This document shows positions 21,973-44,118 of a DNA stretch of 44,118 nt, in pieces. Each line of letters begins with the position of its first letter. The stretch's first letter is position 1. The notes under the pieces were generated by a model. That model had not been told where the DNA came from, ran no database searches, and saw only the letters and a program-made list of their open reading frames with translations. Origin of the DNA: Patescibacteria group bacterium (lineage in GTDB: Bacteria > Patescibacteriota > JACPGU01); the NCBI GenBank assembly GCA_028718745.1, contig JAQULF010000007.1, positions 1 through 44,118 on the forward strand. The letters run 5' to 3'. Position numbers and translations under genes: made by a program.

Positions 21973-24234
21973 TTACTCCCAATGATTAATTGTATTTATT
22001 TTTTCTAACCGCTCTTTTAGTTTACCCCATGAAATAATTTTGTCACTAACAAAATTATCGCTTCGCGATATTTCACGGGGTGAATCATATTTCCCAATCC
22101 CTTCGCCAATTATTTTTTGCGCTTCGGAGCGAGCCAGTTTGATTAAGGCTTGATCCCAAAGATTGGCGATTTTCATCTGTGGAAATCCGGATTGTTCTGC
22201 TCCCCAAAATTCTCCCGGACCGCGGTTTTTCAAATCAAACTCCGCCAGTTCAAATCCCGATGAAGTTTGCGCAAACTTTTTTAGTCGATCGATCGCTTCG
22301 GGATTTTTGCTTTCAGAGAATACCAAACAGTAGGATTGTCTCTCGCCCCTACCAACACGGCCGCGGAATTGATGCAGTTGCGCGAGACCAAATCTATCTG
22401 CGTTCTCAACCATCATTATATTGGCGTTCGGAATATCAATACCTACTTCAATTACTGATGTTGAAACTAGAATTTGAATTTTGCCATCGCGGAATTGATT
22501 TAAAACTTTTTCTTTCTCCTCTGACTTCATGCGACCATGCAAAAATTCAATTTTAAATTTTGGAAAAATCTTTTTTAGTTTGGCGGTTTCAGCAATCACC
22601 GTTTTTCTATCGTCTTGTAGAGACGCAAAATTTTGCGTCTCTACTAAATCAGAATCATCGCTTTCTTGTCCGCCGGCTGGCGGATTTGCTTTCTTGCTTT
22701 TTTGTTCTATCAACGGGCAGACTACAAAAACCTGCCCACCTTCATTAATCTTTTCTTCTACAAACTTATATGCGCCGGATCTTTTTGAAGCATCCACAAA
22801 TCTTGAAACAATCGGTTTGCGTCCTTTTGGTAATTCGTTAATTATTGAAATGTCTAGATCGCCATATAAAGTTAAGGCTAATGATCGTGGAATCGGCGTT
22901 GCTGTCATTGAAAGGAAATGTGGTATCGCTTTTTTTAATCCTGATTTATCTTTTATTTTTTTTCGCTGTGTAACTCCAAAACGATGCTGTTCATCAACGA
23001 TAACCAATCCGATATTTTTATAATTATTTTTTTCCGAAAAAAGTGCATGGGTTCCAATAAGGATGTTTGCATTTTGTAGGGGCGCAAAATTTTGCGCCCT
23101 CTTATTGGGCGGATAATTATCCGCCCCTACAATATATTCGCAACTCTTACCGGTAAACAAACAAATTTTAAATTTAAAATCTTTTAACAATTTTCTAAAT
23201 GTCTCAAAATGTTGTTGCGCCAGTATCTCCGTCGGCGCCATAATAACAACTTGATATCCGGCATTGCAACACATAAGAACTGCGATAGCCGCCACCAATG
23301 TTTTTCCGCTGCCTACATCTCCTTCCAGCAATCGATTCATCGGCGCATCTTTTTCTAAATCTTTCAGAATTTCCCAAACAGATTTTTTCTGATCACCGGT
23401 TAATTCGTATGGCAAAGTTTTTAAAAACTTTTTTATCAATTCTAAATTAAATTTTATTTTTGGCGCTTTACTTTTTTCTAATTCTTTTTTCTGCAGCAAT
23501 AATGAAAGTTGAATGAGAAATACTTCATCAAAAGCCAATCGACGGCGCGCCGCAATCAACTTCTCTCGACTTTCCGGAAAATGAACTTCGCTAATTGCAT
23601 TGTATAAATCTAAGAAGTTATTTCGCTCAACAATATCCTCTGGTAAATATTCATCGAATTGTAGAGACGAACGGCCGTTCGTCTCTACTAATAACGATCT
23701 GATTAATTTTCTCAAAAAATTTGAATTCAATCCCTCCGTTTGCGGATAGATCGGAATGATACCAAAGCCTCTCTCATCGGACGAACCTTGCCTACCGGCA
23801 GGCAGGTCGCCATTCGCCCCTACATCTAATTTCTCAATCATTGGATTGGTAAATTGCAGTCCCCTTTTACTAAAACCAATTTTTCCACTCAACATTACTT
23901 TATCCCCGACTTTATACATATTGGCAATATAGGGCATATTGAACCAAACTACTCCGATAGAACCGGATCCATCATTTATCACGGCTTCCGCCATTTTAAA
24001 TCTTCGGCGTCGGAAAGAAGAACGGGATTTGATATCCCATATTTCTCCTCTAATCGTGGCAGTTTCGTTAGCCCTTATCTGGCTGATCTTTTTGACATGC
24101 GAAAGATCCTCCCATTTGCGAGGAAAATGATAGAGCAGGTCTTCTATATTATATATACCCAGCTTATTTAGCTTTTCAGCAGTCTTGGCACCAATACCGG
24201 AAAGTTGAGAAATAGGAGTAGATAAGGTTAACAT
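21973..24234 (-). CDS. recG: ATP-dependent DNA helicase RecG, carrying several repeat-encoded insertions
   Basis: 753 residues against about 680-700 usually. The wedge/OB domain comes first ([36 protein letters not shown]), then the helicase: Walker A GDVGSGKT near 305-312, [21 protein letters not shown] near 411-416, [18 protein letters not shown], and the motif V/VI block [15 protein letters not shown] and QFRGRVGRG. RecG reverses stalled forks and branch-migrates junctions. The extra length comes from palindromic repeats at 22024-22081, 22617-22644, 22669-22684, 23076-23130, 23661-23688 and 23786-23823. They are read through in frame and fall mostly at surface loops between motifs. The motifs themselves are intact, so the protein is probably active. 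Confidence 0.95.
22024..22081. repeat. Y-shaped palindromic element in recG (C-terminal part)
   Basis: Outer arms ACCCC-TGAAAT and ATTTCA-GGGGT enclose two inner hairpins, ATAATTTTGT/ACAAAATTAT and ATCGC-TTC-GCGAT. It covers residues about 719-738 of RecG. Confidence 0.65.
22617..22644. repeat. 28-base perfect palindrome, GTAGAGACG family, in recG
   Basis: Arms GTAGAGACG/CGTCTCTAC with core CAAAATTTTG. It is identical to 44064-44091 in ksgA. RecG reads it as VETQNFASL(Q). Confidence 0.9.
22669..22684. repeat. NPPAGGQ-type palindrome in recG
   Basis: TCCGCC-GGCT-GGCGGA, read on the minus strand as part of [10 protein letters not shown]. The peptide is of the kind seen repeatedly in CPR proteins. 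Confidence 0.75.
23076..23130. repeat. 55-base composite palindromic element in recG
   Basis: Outer arms GTAGGGG/CCCCTAC. Inside are two palindromes, GGCGCAAAATTTTGCGCC and GGGCGGATAATTATCCGCCC. RecG reads [19 protein letters not shown] (residues about 369-387) between the motif before and IGTHALF. Same length and plan as 24513-24567. Confidence 0.85.
23661..23688. repeat. 28-base perfect palindrome, GTAGAGACG family, in recG
   Basis: Arms as at 22617-22644, but with core AACGGCCGTT. It is read as VETNGRSSL(Q), the same frame as the other copies in recG. Confidence 0.88.
23786..23823. repeat. PAGRQG palindrome nested behind a GTAGGGGCG arm in recG
   Basis: CCTGCCTGCCGG-TAGGCAAGG (minus strand, 23786-23806) encodes DLPAGRQG. 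It is preceded by GTAGGGGCG (23815-23823), the left arm of the other family, giving [14 protein letters not shown] at residues 138-151. Confidence 0.75.
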
Positions 24235-24512: not shown

Positions 24513-24567
24513 GTAGGGACAATTCATGAATTGTCCTCCCCTTGGGCGTTTCATGAAACGCCCCTAC
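24513..24567. repeat. 55-base composite palindromic element overlapping the uvrA stop codon
   Basis: Outer arms GTAGGG/CCCTAC with two inner palindromes (GGACAATTCATGAATTGTCC and GGGCGTTTCATGAAACGCCC). The uvrA stop TAG at 24564-24566 is the TAG of the GTAGGGG arm. Confidence 0.85.
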
Positions 24568-27449
24568 AATATCTTCTTCAAATATTCCCCTGTATAACTC
24601 TTCTTATTCTTCGCAACAGCTTCCGGTGTTCCTTCGGCAACTATTTCTCCACCTTTGTTTCCGCCTTCAGGACCTAGGTCGATAATCCAATCCGAACATT
24701 TGATTACATCCAGATTATGTTCTATAACCAAAATGCTATTTCCTTTATCAACCAAGGCTTGCAAAACCGCGAGCAATCTTTTGGTATCATCAAAATGGAG
24801 ACCTGTCGTTGGTTCGTCAAGAATGTATAATGTTTTGCCAGTTGCTCGGCGCGATAACTCTGTCGCTAGCTTAACTCGTTGCGCCTCTCCTCCGGATAAT
24901 GTTGTAGCCGACTGACCAAGCTTCATGTATCCCAAACCGACCTTATTCAAAACTTCTAATTTAGTTTTTAAAAGTGGAATGTTTTCAAAAAATTTCAACG
25001 CGTCTTCAATTGTAAGATCCAAAACATCAGCGATATTTTTATCTTTATAATAAATATCTAAAACTTCCTGCGTATATCTTTTCCCATGGCAAACATCGCA
25101 GGTCACATAAACATCCGGGAGAAAATGCATTTCAATTTTATTAACCCCATCACCTCGGCAAGCCTCGCATCTCCCACCCTTAACATTGAACGAAAACCTT
25201 CCTTCGCCATATCCTCTCGCCTTAGCTTCTTTGGTTGAAGAAAATATCTCGCGAACCGTTGTAAATAATCCTGTATAAGTCGCGGGATTACTTCTAGGCG
25301 AACGGCCGATGGCTGATTGATCGATATTAATAACCTTATCCAAATGGCTAACGCCCTTTATTTCTTTGCATTTTCCCGGCTCTTGCAGTGAACCATGATA
25401 TTCAACTGACAATCTTTTGGCTAAAATATCATTAACTAAAGATGATTTTCCGGAACCAGAAACTCCGGTTACACAAACAAATTCTCCCAAAGGAATTTTG
25501 ACATCAATGTTTTTTAAATTATTTTCAGTCGCTCCGATGATTTCTAAAAATTTGCCGCTCCCCTTTCTTCTTTTGTTGGGAGTTTCGATTTCTAATTTAC
25601 CCGATAGATATTTTCCGGTCAAAGAATTTTTATCTTTTTTGACTTGTTCGGGAGTTCCTTGAGATATAACTCTTCCACCATGCTCTCCCGCTCCCGGCCC
25701 GATATCTATTAAATGATCCGCCGCCATCATTACCTGCTCATCATGCTCTACTACTATTAATGTATTATCCAAATCGCGAAGATCTTCTAGAGTTTTAATT
25801 AATTTTTTTGTATCTCGTTGATGTAAACCAATGGTCGGTTCATCCAATATATATAGAACGCCGGTAAGCCCCGATCCGATTTGAGTCGCCAAACGAATTC
25901 TCTGCGCTTCCCCACCGGATAGCGTATAGGCTGAACGATCAATTGTGATATATCCCAATCCAACATCAACAAGAAATCGCAAGCGCGCGTTTATTTCTTT
26001 GATGATATTTTTAGCAATTTCTTTATGTTTCTCGCCTAGTTTGTTTGGCAAGTTTTGAAAAAAGAAAATTAACCCTTCTACATTATCTTCAACCACCATA
26101 TCGATAGATCGATCCGCAACCTTTACGCCCAGAATTTCTTTTTTTAATCTTTTGCCATGGCATAGATCGCAAACTTTTTCGCGCATAAATTTTTCTATTT
26201 CTCTTCGAGCAATATCGCTATCGGTTTCTTTATAGCGCCTCTGCATATTTTTTATCACACCCTCATAAGTTACGGGGTATTCAGCGATTCTTCCGGAAGC
26301 CGTTCGGTATTTCAAATTGTATTGTTCATCACCGGTACCATTCATAATAATATCGAGCATCCCCGGCTTTAATTTCTCAATCGGAGTATTTGTATTAAAA
26401 CCATATTTTTTTCCAACTGCTTCCAGAATTCTCACATGCCAGCTGGTATTGCTAACCGAGCTTCTCGCCCAAGGACGAATTGCTCCTTCGGCAATTGTAA
26501 GGCGAGGATTAGGAATTGCCAGCTTCGCATCAACCTCTAACATTCGTCCCAATCCGGTACATTTCGGACAAGCGCCTTGAGGTGAGTTAAAGGAGAAAGA
26601 TCGAGGAGAAATTTCAGGAAGCGAAATACCGCAATCCGGACAAGCAAAATTTTCACTGAATATTTTTTCCTCTTTAGTGTCCGTATTATATATAGAAACA
26701 ACTCCCTTACTGTGGCGCAGCGCTACTTCGACTGAATCGCTTAAACGAACTCGAAGTGAATCCGATTTTGGATCCCCGCCTTCGGACGGGGCAAGCAAGG
26801 TTATGCGATCAACTACTATCTCTATATTATTCTTTTTATTTTTATCAATTTCGATTTTATCGTCTAAACTAATGACCACGCCATTCAAGCGAATGCGGAC
26901 GAAGCCGTCTTTTTTAATTTTTTCTAAAATCTGTTTTTGCTCGCCTTTTTCTCCTCGAACAATCGGAGACAAAATCAAAAGCTTTGGGATCGCTTGCCCC
27001 GAGCTTGCCGAGGGGTTTTTTTCTTTTAATATCTGCGAAACTATTTCGGGAATAGTTTGTGAAGTAACCATTTTATCGCATTCCGGACAATGCACTTCTC
27101 CTACATTGGCATATAGTAAACGAAGATAATCATAGATCTCCGTAACCGTTCCAACCGTAGAGCGCGGATTACTCGAGGTAGATTTTTGATCAATGGAAAT
27201 CGCCGGAGATAATCCTTCGATTTTATCTACATCCGGTTTTTCCATCAAACCTAAAAATTGACGAGCATAGCTGGACAGAGACTCTACATAGCGCCTCTGA
27301 CCTTCCGCATATAAAGTATCAAAAGCTAGAGAACTTTTTCCCGAACCGGATAATCCGGTTATTACAACTAGCTTATTTCGAGGGATTTCCAGATCTATAT
27401 TTTTGAGATTGTGTTCTCTGGCGCCTTTGATATTAATTACATTTTTCAT
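24564..27449 (-). CDS. uvrA: UvrABC system protein A (excision nuclease damage sensor)
   Basis: 961 residues from the ATG at 27449; a TTG three codons upstream is less likely. It has two ABC ATPase halves: Walker [10 protein letters not shown] at 32-40 and GVSGSGKSS near 661-670, two signature blocks ([14 protein letters not shown] and [14 protein letters not shown]), Walker [12 protein letters not shown] and [11 protein letters not shown], and zinc modules [37 protein letters not shown]. UvrA finds bulky DNA damage and loads UvrB. Two repeat-derived insertions are read through: NPSASSGQA near 146-152 and [10 protein letters not shown] near 220-228. A near-perfect promoter lies at 27483-27511. 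The stop codon comes from a palindromic repeat. Confidence 0.97.
26774..26791. repeat. Palindromic insert in uvrA ([10 protein letters not shown] type)
   Basis: CCCCGCC-TTCG-GACGGGG with one mismatch. It is read as part of [16 protein letters not shown] in a variable stretch of UvrA. Confidence 0.65.
26997..27015. repeat. Repeat-derived insert in uvrA (NPSASSGQA type)
   Basis: CCCCGAGCTTGCCGAGGGG. Read on the minus strand as NPSASSGQA, a peptide that recurs across CPR proteins. Confidence 0.7.
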
Positions 27450-43508: not shown

Positions 43509-43550
43509 TGAATTGCAATTTTGATTTTTAATTTTTAATTTTTGATTTGG
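43509..43550. repeat. AT-rich simple repeat at the ksgA end
   Basis: Repeated ATTTTTGA/ATTTTTA units (plus strand) run through the ksgA stop codon, encoding NQIKN. Same type as in the DUF1385 gene start. Confidence 0.6.
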
Positions 43551-44118
43551 TTGTAGATCCCCAACCAATCTTCAATGGATAAATCCTGCGCCCTTGCATT
43601 CTCGCTAATTCTCATCTCCCTAAATATATCATATATCTTTTCTTTGGGAATATCCAATCCTTTCGCTAAGTTATTTACCACTAATTTCCTCTTCGCTGCA
43701 AAACCAGCATGAACCACTTTAAAAAAATATTCTGTATTTTTGTTTTCTTGTTTTTTTGCTTTTTTGATTTTCAATCTTATGACTGCGCTATCCACTTTTG
43801 GCTTCGGCCAAAAACTATTCTTGGAAACATAAAACAATATCTCCGGATCTGTAAACATTTGAACCGAAATCGCGAGTAAATTCATTTCGCCTTTCTTGCT
43901 CCGCCCTTGGCGGGGTGAAGCTACGATTCTTTCTGCCACCTCTTTTTGTACCATTAGAATCATTTCCGACGGCTTGTCCTTCATCTCAAATATCTTGCGC
44001 AACAAAAAAGATGTTAAGTAATAAGGAATATTCCCAACGATCTTATAATTTCCTTTAATTTCCGTAGAGACGCAAAATTTTGCGTCTCTACAAATTTTTA
44101 ATTTATCTAAATATTCTA
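43535..44118 (-). CDS. ksgA: 16S rRNA adenine(1518/1519) dimethyltransferase, 5' end outside the window
   Basis: Reading frame open from the window edge (first full codon at 44116) to the stop at 43535, about 194 residues. IVGNIPYYLTSFLLRK is the NLPY-type catalytic motif IV, MILMVQKEVAERI follows, then LLAISVQMFT, FWPKPKVDSAVIRL and the C-terminal helical domain (HAGFAAKRKLVVNNLAKGL). It dimethylates two adenines at the 3' end of 16S rRNA. Three repeat-derived stretches are read through: [10 protein letters not shown] (44064-44091) just before motif IV, ASPRQGRSKKGE (43899-43915) and KKAKKQENK (43740-43767). A shorter start at 44005 would cut off motif IV and is rejected. Confidence 0.94.
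   Translation of the reverse strand, partial: EYLDKLKICRDAKFCVSTEIKGNYKIVGNIPYYLTSFLLRKIFEMKDKPSEMILMVQKEVAERIVASPRQGRSKKGEMNLLAISVQMFTDPEILFYVSKNSFWPKPKVDSAVIRLKIKKAKKQENKNTEYFFKVVHAGFAAKRKLVVNNLAKGLDIPKEKIYDIFREMRISENARAQDLSIEDWLGIYNQIKN
43740..43767. repeat. 28-base A/T-rich repeat in ksgA, identical copy in secA
   Basis: Identical to 33135-33162 and read in the same frame (KKAKKQEN). Confidence 0.8.
43899..43915. repeat. SPRQG-type palindrome in ksgA
   Basis: CTCCGCC-CTT-GGCGGGG (one G-T pair), read on the minus strand as part of ASPRQGRSK. Confidence 0.7.
44064..44091. repeat. 28-base perfect palindrome, GTAGAGACG family, in ksgA
   Basis: Identical to 22617-22644 in recG, but read in another frame as [10 protein letters not shown]. 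Confidence 0.9.

Follow-up and report, generated by a model that had tools for sequence, protein, structure and literature searches.

In-frame GTAG palindromes in recG and other genes of a Patescibacteria genome, their RAYT genes, and differing hairpins at shared sites

REPs take their name from their extragenic location. In the subclass 2.4 REPtrons of TnpA_REP, long REPs are tagged with GT[AG]G, double-foot REPs end in C[TC]AC, and REPs are likewise found, in-frame, within the transposase gene between its HuH and Y motifs (Quentin et al., 2018, PMC6006769). Both the linkage of REPs to RAYT genes and the in-frame REP within a transposase gene are therefore already known from that work. The TnpA_REP enzymes studied cleave at C|T. 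A preference of intragenic REPs for repair genes has also been seen before (Di Nocera et al., 2013, PMC3733652). Judged by its described features, the subclass 2.4 double-foot system appears to match the repeats that we describe here.

The window analyzed, a stretch of 44,118 nucleotides, is contig C7 of a Patescibacteria group bacterium genome (G000; 887,656 bases, 38.6% GC). Its recG gene encodes a protein whose AlphaFold2 model has 1gm5 RecG as the best fold match. A first-pass annotation had placed six palindromes in this gene and proposed that they are read through; we found all six in-frame within the 753-aa reading frame, at the exact spans listed in the table. The positions were real, but the repeat at 23076 proved to be a head-to-head pair and not a single repeat. 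Four of the six are GTAG REPs, and the remaining two come from separate dispersed palindrome families, namely a long hairpin (12 genome copies, 4 in genes) and the TCCGCCGGCTGGCGGA palindrome (6 copies, 5 in genes). Chance palindromes were rejected as an origin: counting arms of at least 9 with at least 5 G+C, the genome held 217 inverted repeats and a shuffled copy held 11, and the GTAG-stem pattern had 13 double-foot copies genome-wide and zero for its reversed control. Structured RNA in the window, searched with Rfam, was limited to a tRNA, and the palindromes were unmatched. The nested palindrome CTTGCCTACCGGCAGGCAGG, which encodes LPAGRQG, recurred within one mismatch in 35/192 phylum genomes, with none for its reversed control; it looks like another mobile palindrome.

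Table. Features of the recG region and related repeats in the window
Feature	Position	Strand	Remarks
recG	21973..24234	-	753 aa; RecG wedge/OB fold, DEAD and Helicase_C domains all found
Long hairpin, second dispersed family (TTTACCCC[AG]T[GC]AAAT...)	22021..22085	+	recG residues ~717-738
Double-foot GTAG REP GTAGAGACGCAAAATTTTGCGTCTCTAC	22617..22644	.	recG residues 531-540; other REPs at same codon in G001 and G002
Short palindrome TCCGCCGGCTGGCGGA, third family	22669..22684	.	recG residues ~517-522 (NPPAGG)
Head-to-head GTAG REP pair, cores CAAAATTTTG and GGATAATTATCC	23076..23130	.	recG residues 369-387
Double-foot GTAG REP GTAGAGACGAACGGCCGTTCGTCTCTAC	23661..23688	.	recG residues 183-192
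GTAG REP (GTAGGGGCGAATGGC...GTTCGTCC), degenerate, with second palindrome in loop	23779..23823	-	recG residues 138-152; read from sequence
Nested palindrome CTTGCCTACCGGCAGGCAGG in loop of the 23779 REP	23787..23806	+	One copy in G000
GTAG REP overlapping 3' end of neighbouring gene 24564-27449 (962 aa)	24544..24567	-	Foot TAG is the gene's stop codon
Double-foot GTAG REP, identical in sequence to the 22617 copy	44064..44091	.	Within ksgA/rsmA (43535-44116)

We aligned RecG with its homologs, using metagenome-assembled genomes of other genera and phylum relatives, with G001 half covered. The protein is 753 aa long here and ~690 aa in 29 phylum relatives, so the earlier estimate that the repeats add about 60 residues is correct. 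In these relatives the repeat stretches were absent or fell in variable loops, and they did not occur outside the repeat-bearing family, which ruled out conserved RecG loops as their origin. The hairpin at 22021-22085 forms a C-terminal extension that the RecG proteins of G001 and G002 do not have, while the pair at 23076-23130 substitutes for a variable helicase loop and is not a pure addition. As the first reading had suggested, the helicase motifs were unbroken: their invariant residues were intact and the inserts lay outside them. These alignments support the interpretation that dispersed palindromes were inserted in-frame into recG, a conserved helicase gene. Among the genomes compared, which belong to other genera and to phylum relatives, neither a true empty site nor a target duplication was seen. 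In the AlphaFold2 model (mean pLDDT 75), the segments with pLDDT <50 (138-153, 369-383, 510-539 and 719-736) covered all but one of the six palindromes, the exception (183-192) lying between two helices. The REP-derived peptides look disordered in this model. Some other REP hosts showed no net alignment gap against a relative, because the relative carries another variable insert at the same place.

Throughout the genome, a short GC-rich palindromic stem comes after the 5' GTAG foot of these REPs, which form units of 23-28 nt or dimers of 52-70 nt. A strict scan (GTAG[AG]G with 8-bp stems) detected 113 copies: 82 in called genes, 29 outside and 2 across gene ends. Genes were called with a home-made caller (81% coding) that missed two RAYT genes (on C6 and C9), which makes 82 a lower bound. 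The in-gene copies represent 69 events in 53 genes, including 13 head-to-head dimers beside single REPs, and many families have 4-22 copies. The impression that recG is a singular host did not survive this count. Taking recG by itself, P(>=3 events) = 0.0014; PolA, DusB and PrmC have three each as well, and RecG was dismissed as a single preferred host. Two 12-mers, TCGAGGATGACA with 39 copies and CTACGAATTACG with 25, signal additional repeat families in this genome.

All four GTAG copies in recG translate as V-E-T or V-G-A, as first proposed. Among events with the GTAG foot first, phases 0, 1 and 2 accounted for 46, 11 and 0, respectively; phase 2 would read TAG. The TAG frame is therefore unused, but TAG stays unread in either of the other two frames, so that the earlier explanation, a frame chosen to avoid it, is a partial account. 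The excess of phase 0 persisted after allowing for the position of YY sites in codons (p=7e-4). Insert length was discarded as proof of frame selection: 11/13 dimers within genes have a length of 1 mod 3, but so do most dimers outside called genes, and dimer length was therefore not used as evidence.

Two pyrimidines (YY) stand directly 5' of GTAG in 95/113 REPs, in keeping with the C|T cleavage of the studied TnpA_REP enzymes if the analogy holds. No target consensus beyond YY was found in the REP flanks. Single-foot in-gene REPs were sense in 30 cases and antisense in 8. The GTAG strand was the G-rich strand in 38/51, as insertion into the lagging-strand template would predict, although this figure is confounded with gene direction; among REPs outside called genes alone, the count was 11/16.

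The host genes, classed by NCBIfam name for the part of the hosts that was scanned, were enriched in two functions. Among 50 non-RAYT hosts, 12 act in repair or replication (RecG, PolA, UvrB, UvrC, a UvrD-like helicase, Mfd, PriA, RarA, GyrA, DnaE, 3-methyladenine glycosylase and LigD phosphoesterase) and 13 in RNA modification (QueA, TsaD, TsaE, RlmN, two RluA-family proteins, Tgt, Elp3, MiaA, MiaB, DusB, MnmA and KsgA). Together these make 25/50, against 4/40 in a control sample of genes drawn at random with weighting by length (p=4e-5). Such a bias would be expected if the hairpins were domesticated regulators, kept for tuning mRNA or for modifying repair and RNA-modification enzymes, a role that has been proposed for repair genes (PMC3733652). 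Weak constraint on such enzymes accounts for the bias equally well, however, and in-gene REPs are mildly rarer than the coding fraction predicts (82/113 against 0.81). As the cores also differ between genera and the recG peptides look disordered, we consider domestication very doubtful. An Mfd-like gene (L052, C12:28428-30593) encodes 721 aa, against ~1065 aa in orthologues, and carries two REPs; because it ends near a contig edge, it may be cut off there or truncated. Two in-frame GTAG REPs also lie in a group II intron reverse-transcriptase-like gene (L021, C1:142831-143910).

Five RAYT genes were identified in this genome (C12:11392, C12:23302-23853, C5:37383, C6:21653 and C9:1619-2230); in each, a REP belonging to the gene's own family lies in-frame downstream of the HUH motif. 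They match NF047646/PF01797; the NF047646 scores are 51-54 bits where the cut-off is 80. The probable cause of these low scores is the REP, which divides the domain in two, and this splitting also explains why they were absent from Pfam detection. The GTAGAGACGAACGGCCGTTCGTCTCTAC repeat of recG occurs both inside the RAYT gene at C12:23302-23853 and 20 nt downstream of it. No RAYT in this genome carries the CAAAATTTTG family; a REP identical to a member of that family lies inside a RAYT of G021. Across Patescibacteria, 27/35 Y1 loci examined had a REP in the ORF, and one more (L220) was overlooked by the GC filter and is thus not among the 27. Furthermore, RAYT genomes and genomes with the double-foot pattern coincide (17/24 vs 13/168, p=3e-11). 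Taken together, we infer that the five RAYTs likely move the GTAG REPs.

Eight Y1 transposases detected by Pfam were inspected and set aside as mobilisers; hairpins of a different family border at least four of them. Four Y1 genes (L070-L073, at C4:33002, C6:14581, C9:33008 and C18:2923) each have inverted hairpins on their flanks, most of which start from a GTTG foot (e.g. GTTGGTTCAAAGCTCCTGCTTTGAACC), and form with them a second hairpin-transposase family in this genome.

The likeness to Rickettsia palindromic elements noted at first sight holds for the outcome: in both cases palindromes are translated in-frame in unrelated, conserved proteins of a reduced genome (Ogata et al., cited in PMC10969869). 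It does not extend to the elements themselves. The repeats here have GTAG feet, units of 23-28 nt and their own RAYT transposases, whereas Rickettsia elements are ~150 bp and the intragenic R. conorii RPE-4/6 are classed among the CGTC repeats, a group with neither a transposase nor a RAYT link. CGTC feet, a ~150-bp RPE-1 unit or RPE homology were not seen among the repeats of this genome, and an origin of this type is hardly tenable.

Comparison with other genera showed that REP sites are shared while the hairpins mostly differ. At the recG 22617 site, the REPs of three genera occupy one and the same codon; their cores, CAAAATTTTG, AATTCATGAATT and GAAGCATGCTTC, are each perfectly paired. DusB, PrmC and Elp3 carry REPs at the same codon in this genome and G002 with different cores, and GatB does so with the same family. 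Outside RAYTs, the two genomes thus share five exact same-codon coincidences, where 0.037 are expected. The simplest reading of these sequences suggests inherited sites with hairpin turnover. In its stronger form, intragenic REP sites would be stable landing pads, inherited across genera, at which each hairpin in turn gives way to one from the family of the RAYT then active; we advance this tentatively, with slightly less than even confidence. If true, a peptide loop could be rewritten without moving, as at the recG site in three genera.

Two other histories of these sites were weighed. Lineages may have been hit separately in the same tolerated loops, the shared sites being hot or permissive positions. 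REPs are indeed concentrated (four genes with at least three events against 0.33 expected), and those of each genome belong to its own families; yet codon and frame match exactly at five non-RAYT genes, in recG across three genera, and the flanks offer no target consensus beyond YY, which makes recurrent insertion rather unlikely, though a serious contender. Alternatively, each palindrome may have stayed put while both arms mutated jointly by hairpin template switching (quasi-palindrome correction). The perfect covariation of the arms at shared sites (GAGAC/GTCTC vs GGGGC/GCCCC) is what this process would leave behind, but some shared-site cores match multi-copy families of the same genome; the G002 elp3 core, for instance, matches the REP of the RAYT at C1:289462. 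Mutation in place would not yield such matches, and we regard template switching as improbable.

As a whole, the data are best explained by RAYT-mobilised GTAG REPs that are tolerated in-frame, at sites that are inherited with replacement of the hairpin, and we hold this account to be highly probable. The four recG GTAG REPs would be non-autonomous single-strand mobile elements of a RAYT (TnpA_REP) system, inserting in single-stranded DNA, possibly the lagging-strand template, with GTAG as the 5' foot and 3' of a pyrimidine pair. Copies in coding sequence would persist if they add whole codons, leave TAG unread and occupy a surface loop. As the REPs of the RAYT genes lie in-frame within these genes, past the HUH motif, enzyme and hairpin would travel together. 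Once occupied, a site in a gene would be inherited, and its hairpin could later be swapped for another family member.

REPs are here mainly an element of coding sequence in a streamlined genome, where they rewrite loops in enzymes that act in repair and RNA modification. A fixed site with a changing hairpin provides a sequence-based test of REP turnover, and RAYT-driven insertion can be tested on genomes alone through the pyrimidine and strand signatures. For annotation, peptides such as LPAGRQG in Patescibacteria proteins are to be expected as products of REPs or other palindromes, not as domains.

Compared with the REPINs and BIMEs of Pseudomonas and E. coli (PMC3116915, PMC2817692), the present repeats likewise form head-to-head REP pairs in families tied to cognate RAYTs, but those elements lie mainly outside genes, and REPs flank their RAYTs without invading them. 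With the GTAG-superfamily REPs (PMC3733652) the present repeats have in common the GTAG foot and its short perfect stems, the head-to-head dimers, copies inserted in genes for DNA repair and RNA modification, and the use of the foot TAG as a stop codon; those REPs are mostly extragenic, in contrast to the 82/113 in called genes here, and the phase, strand and pyrimidine rules are quantified in the present work. The likeness to subclass 2.4 (PMC6006769) lies in the GT[AG]G / C[TC]AC double-foot REPs and in the REP held in-frame inside the transposase gene. The host differs: the words Parcubacteria and Patescibacteria are missing from the main text of that paper, and as far as the literature examined shows, Patescibacteria is a new phylum for the subclass 2.4 description. 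Here, moreover, most REPs lie inside host genes, and orthologous sites show turnover of the core. Intragenic REPs in repair genes have already been published (PMC3733652); the turnover of hairpins at shared sites is the less expected result.
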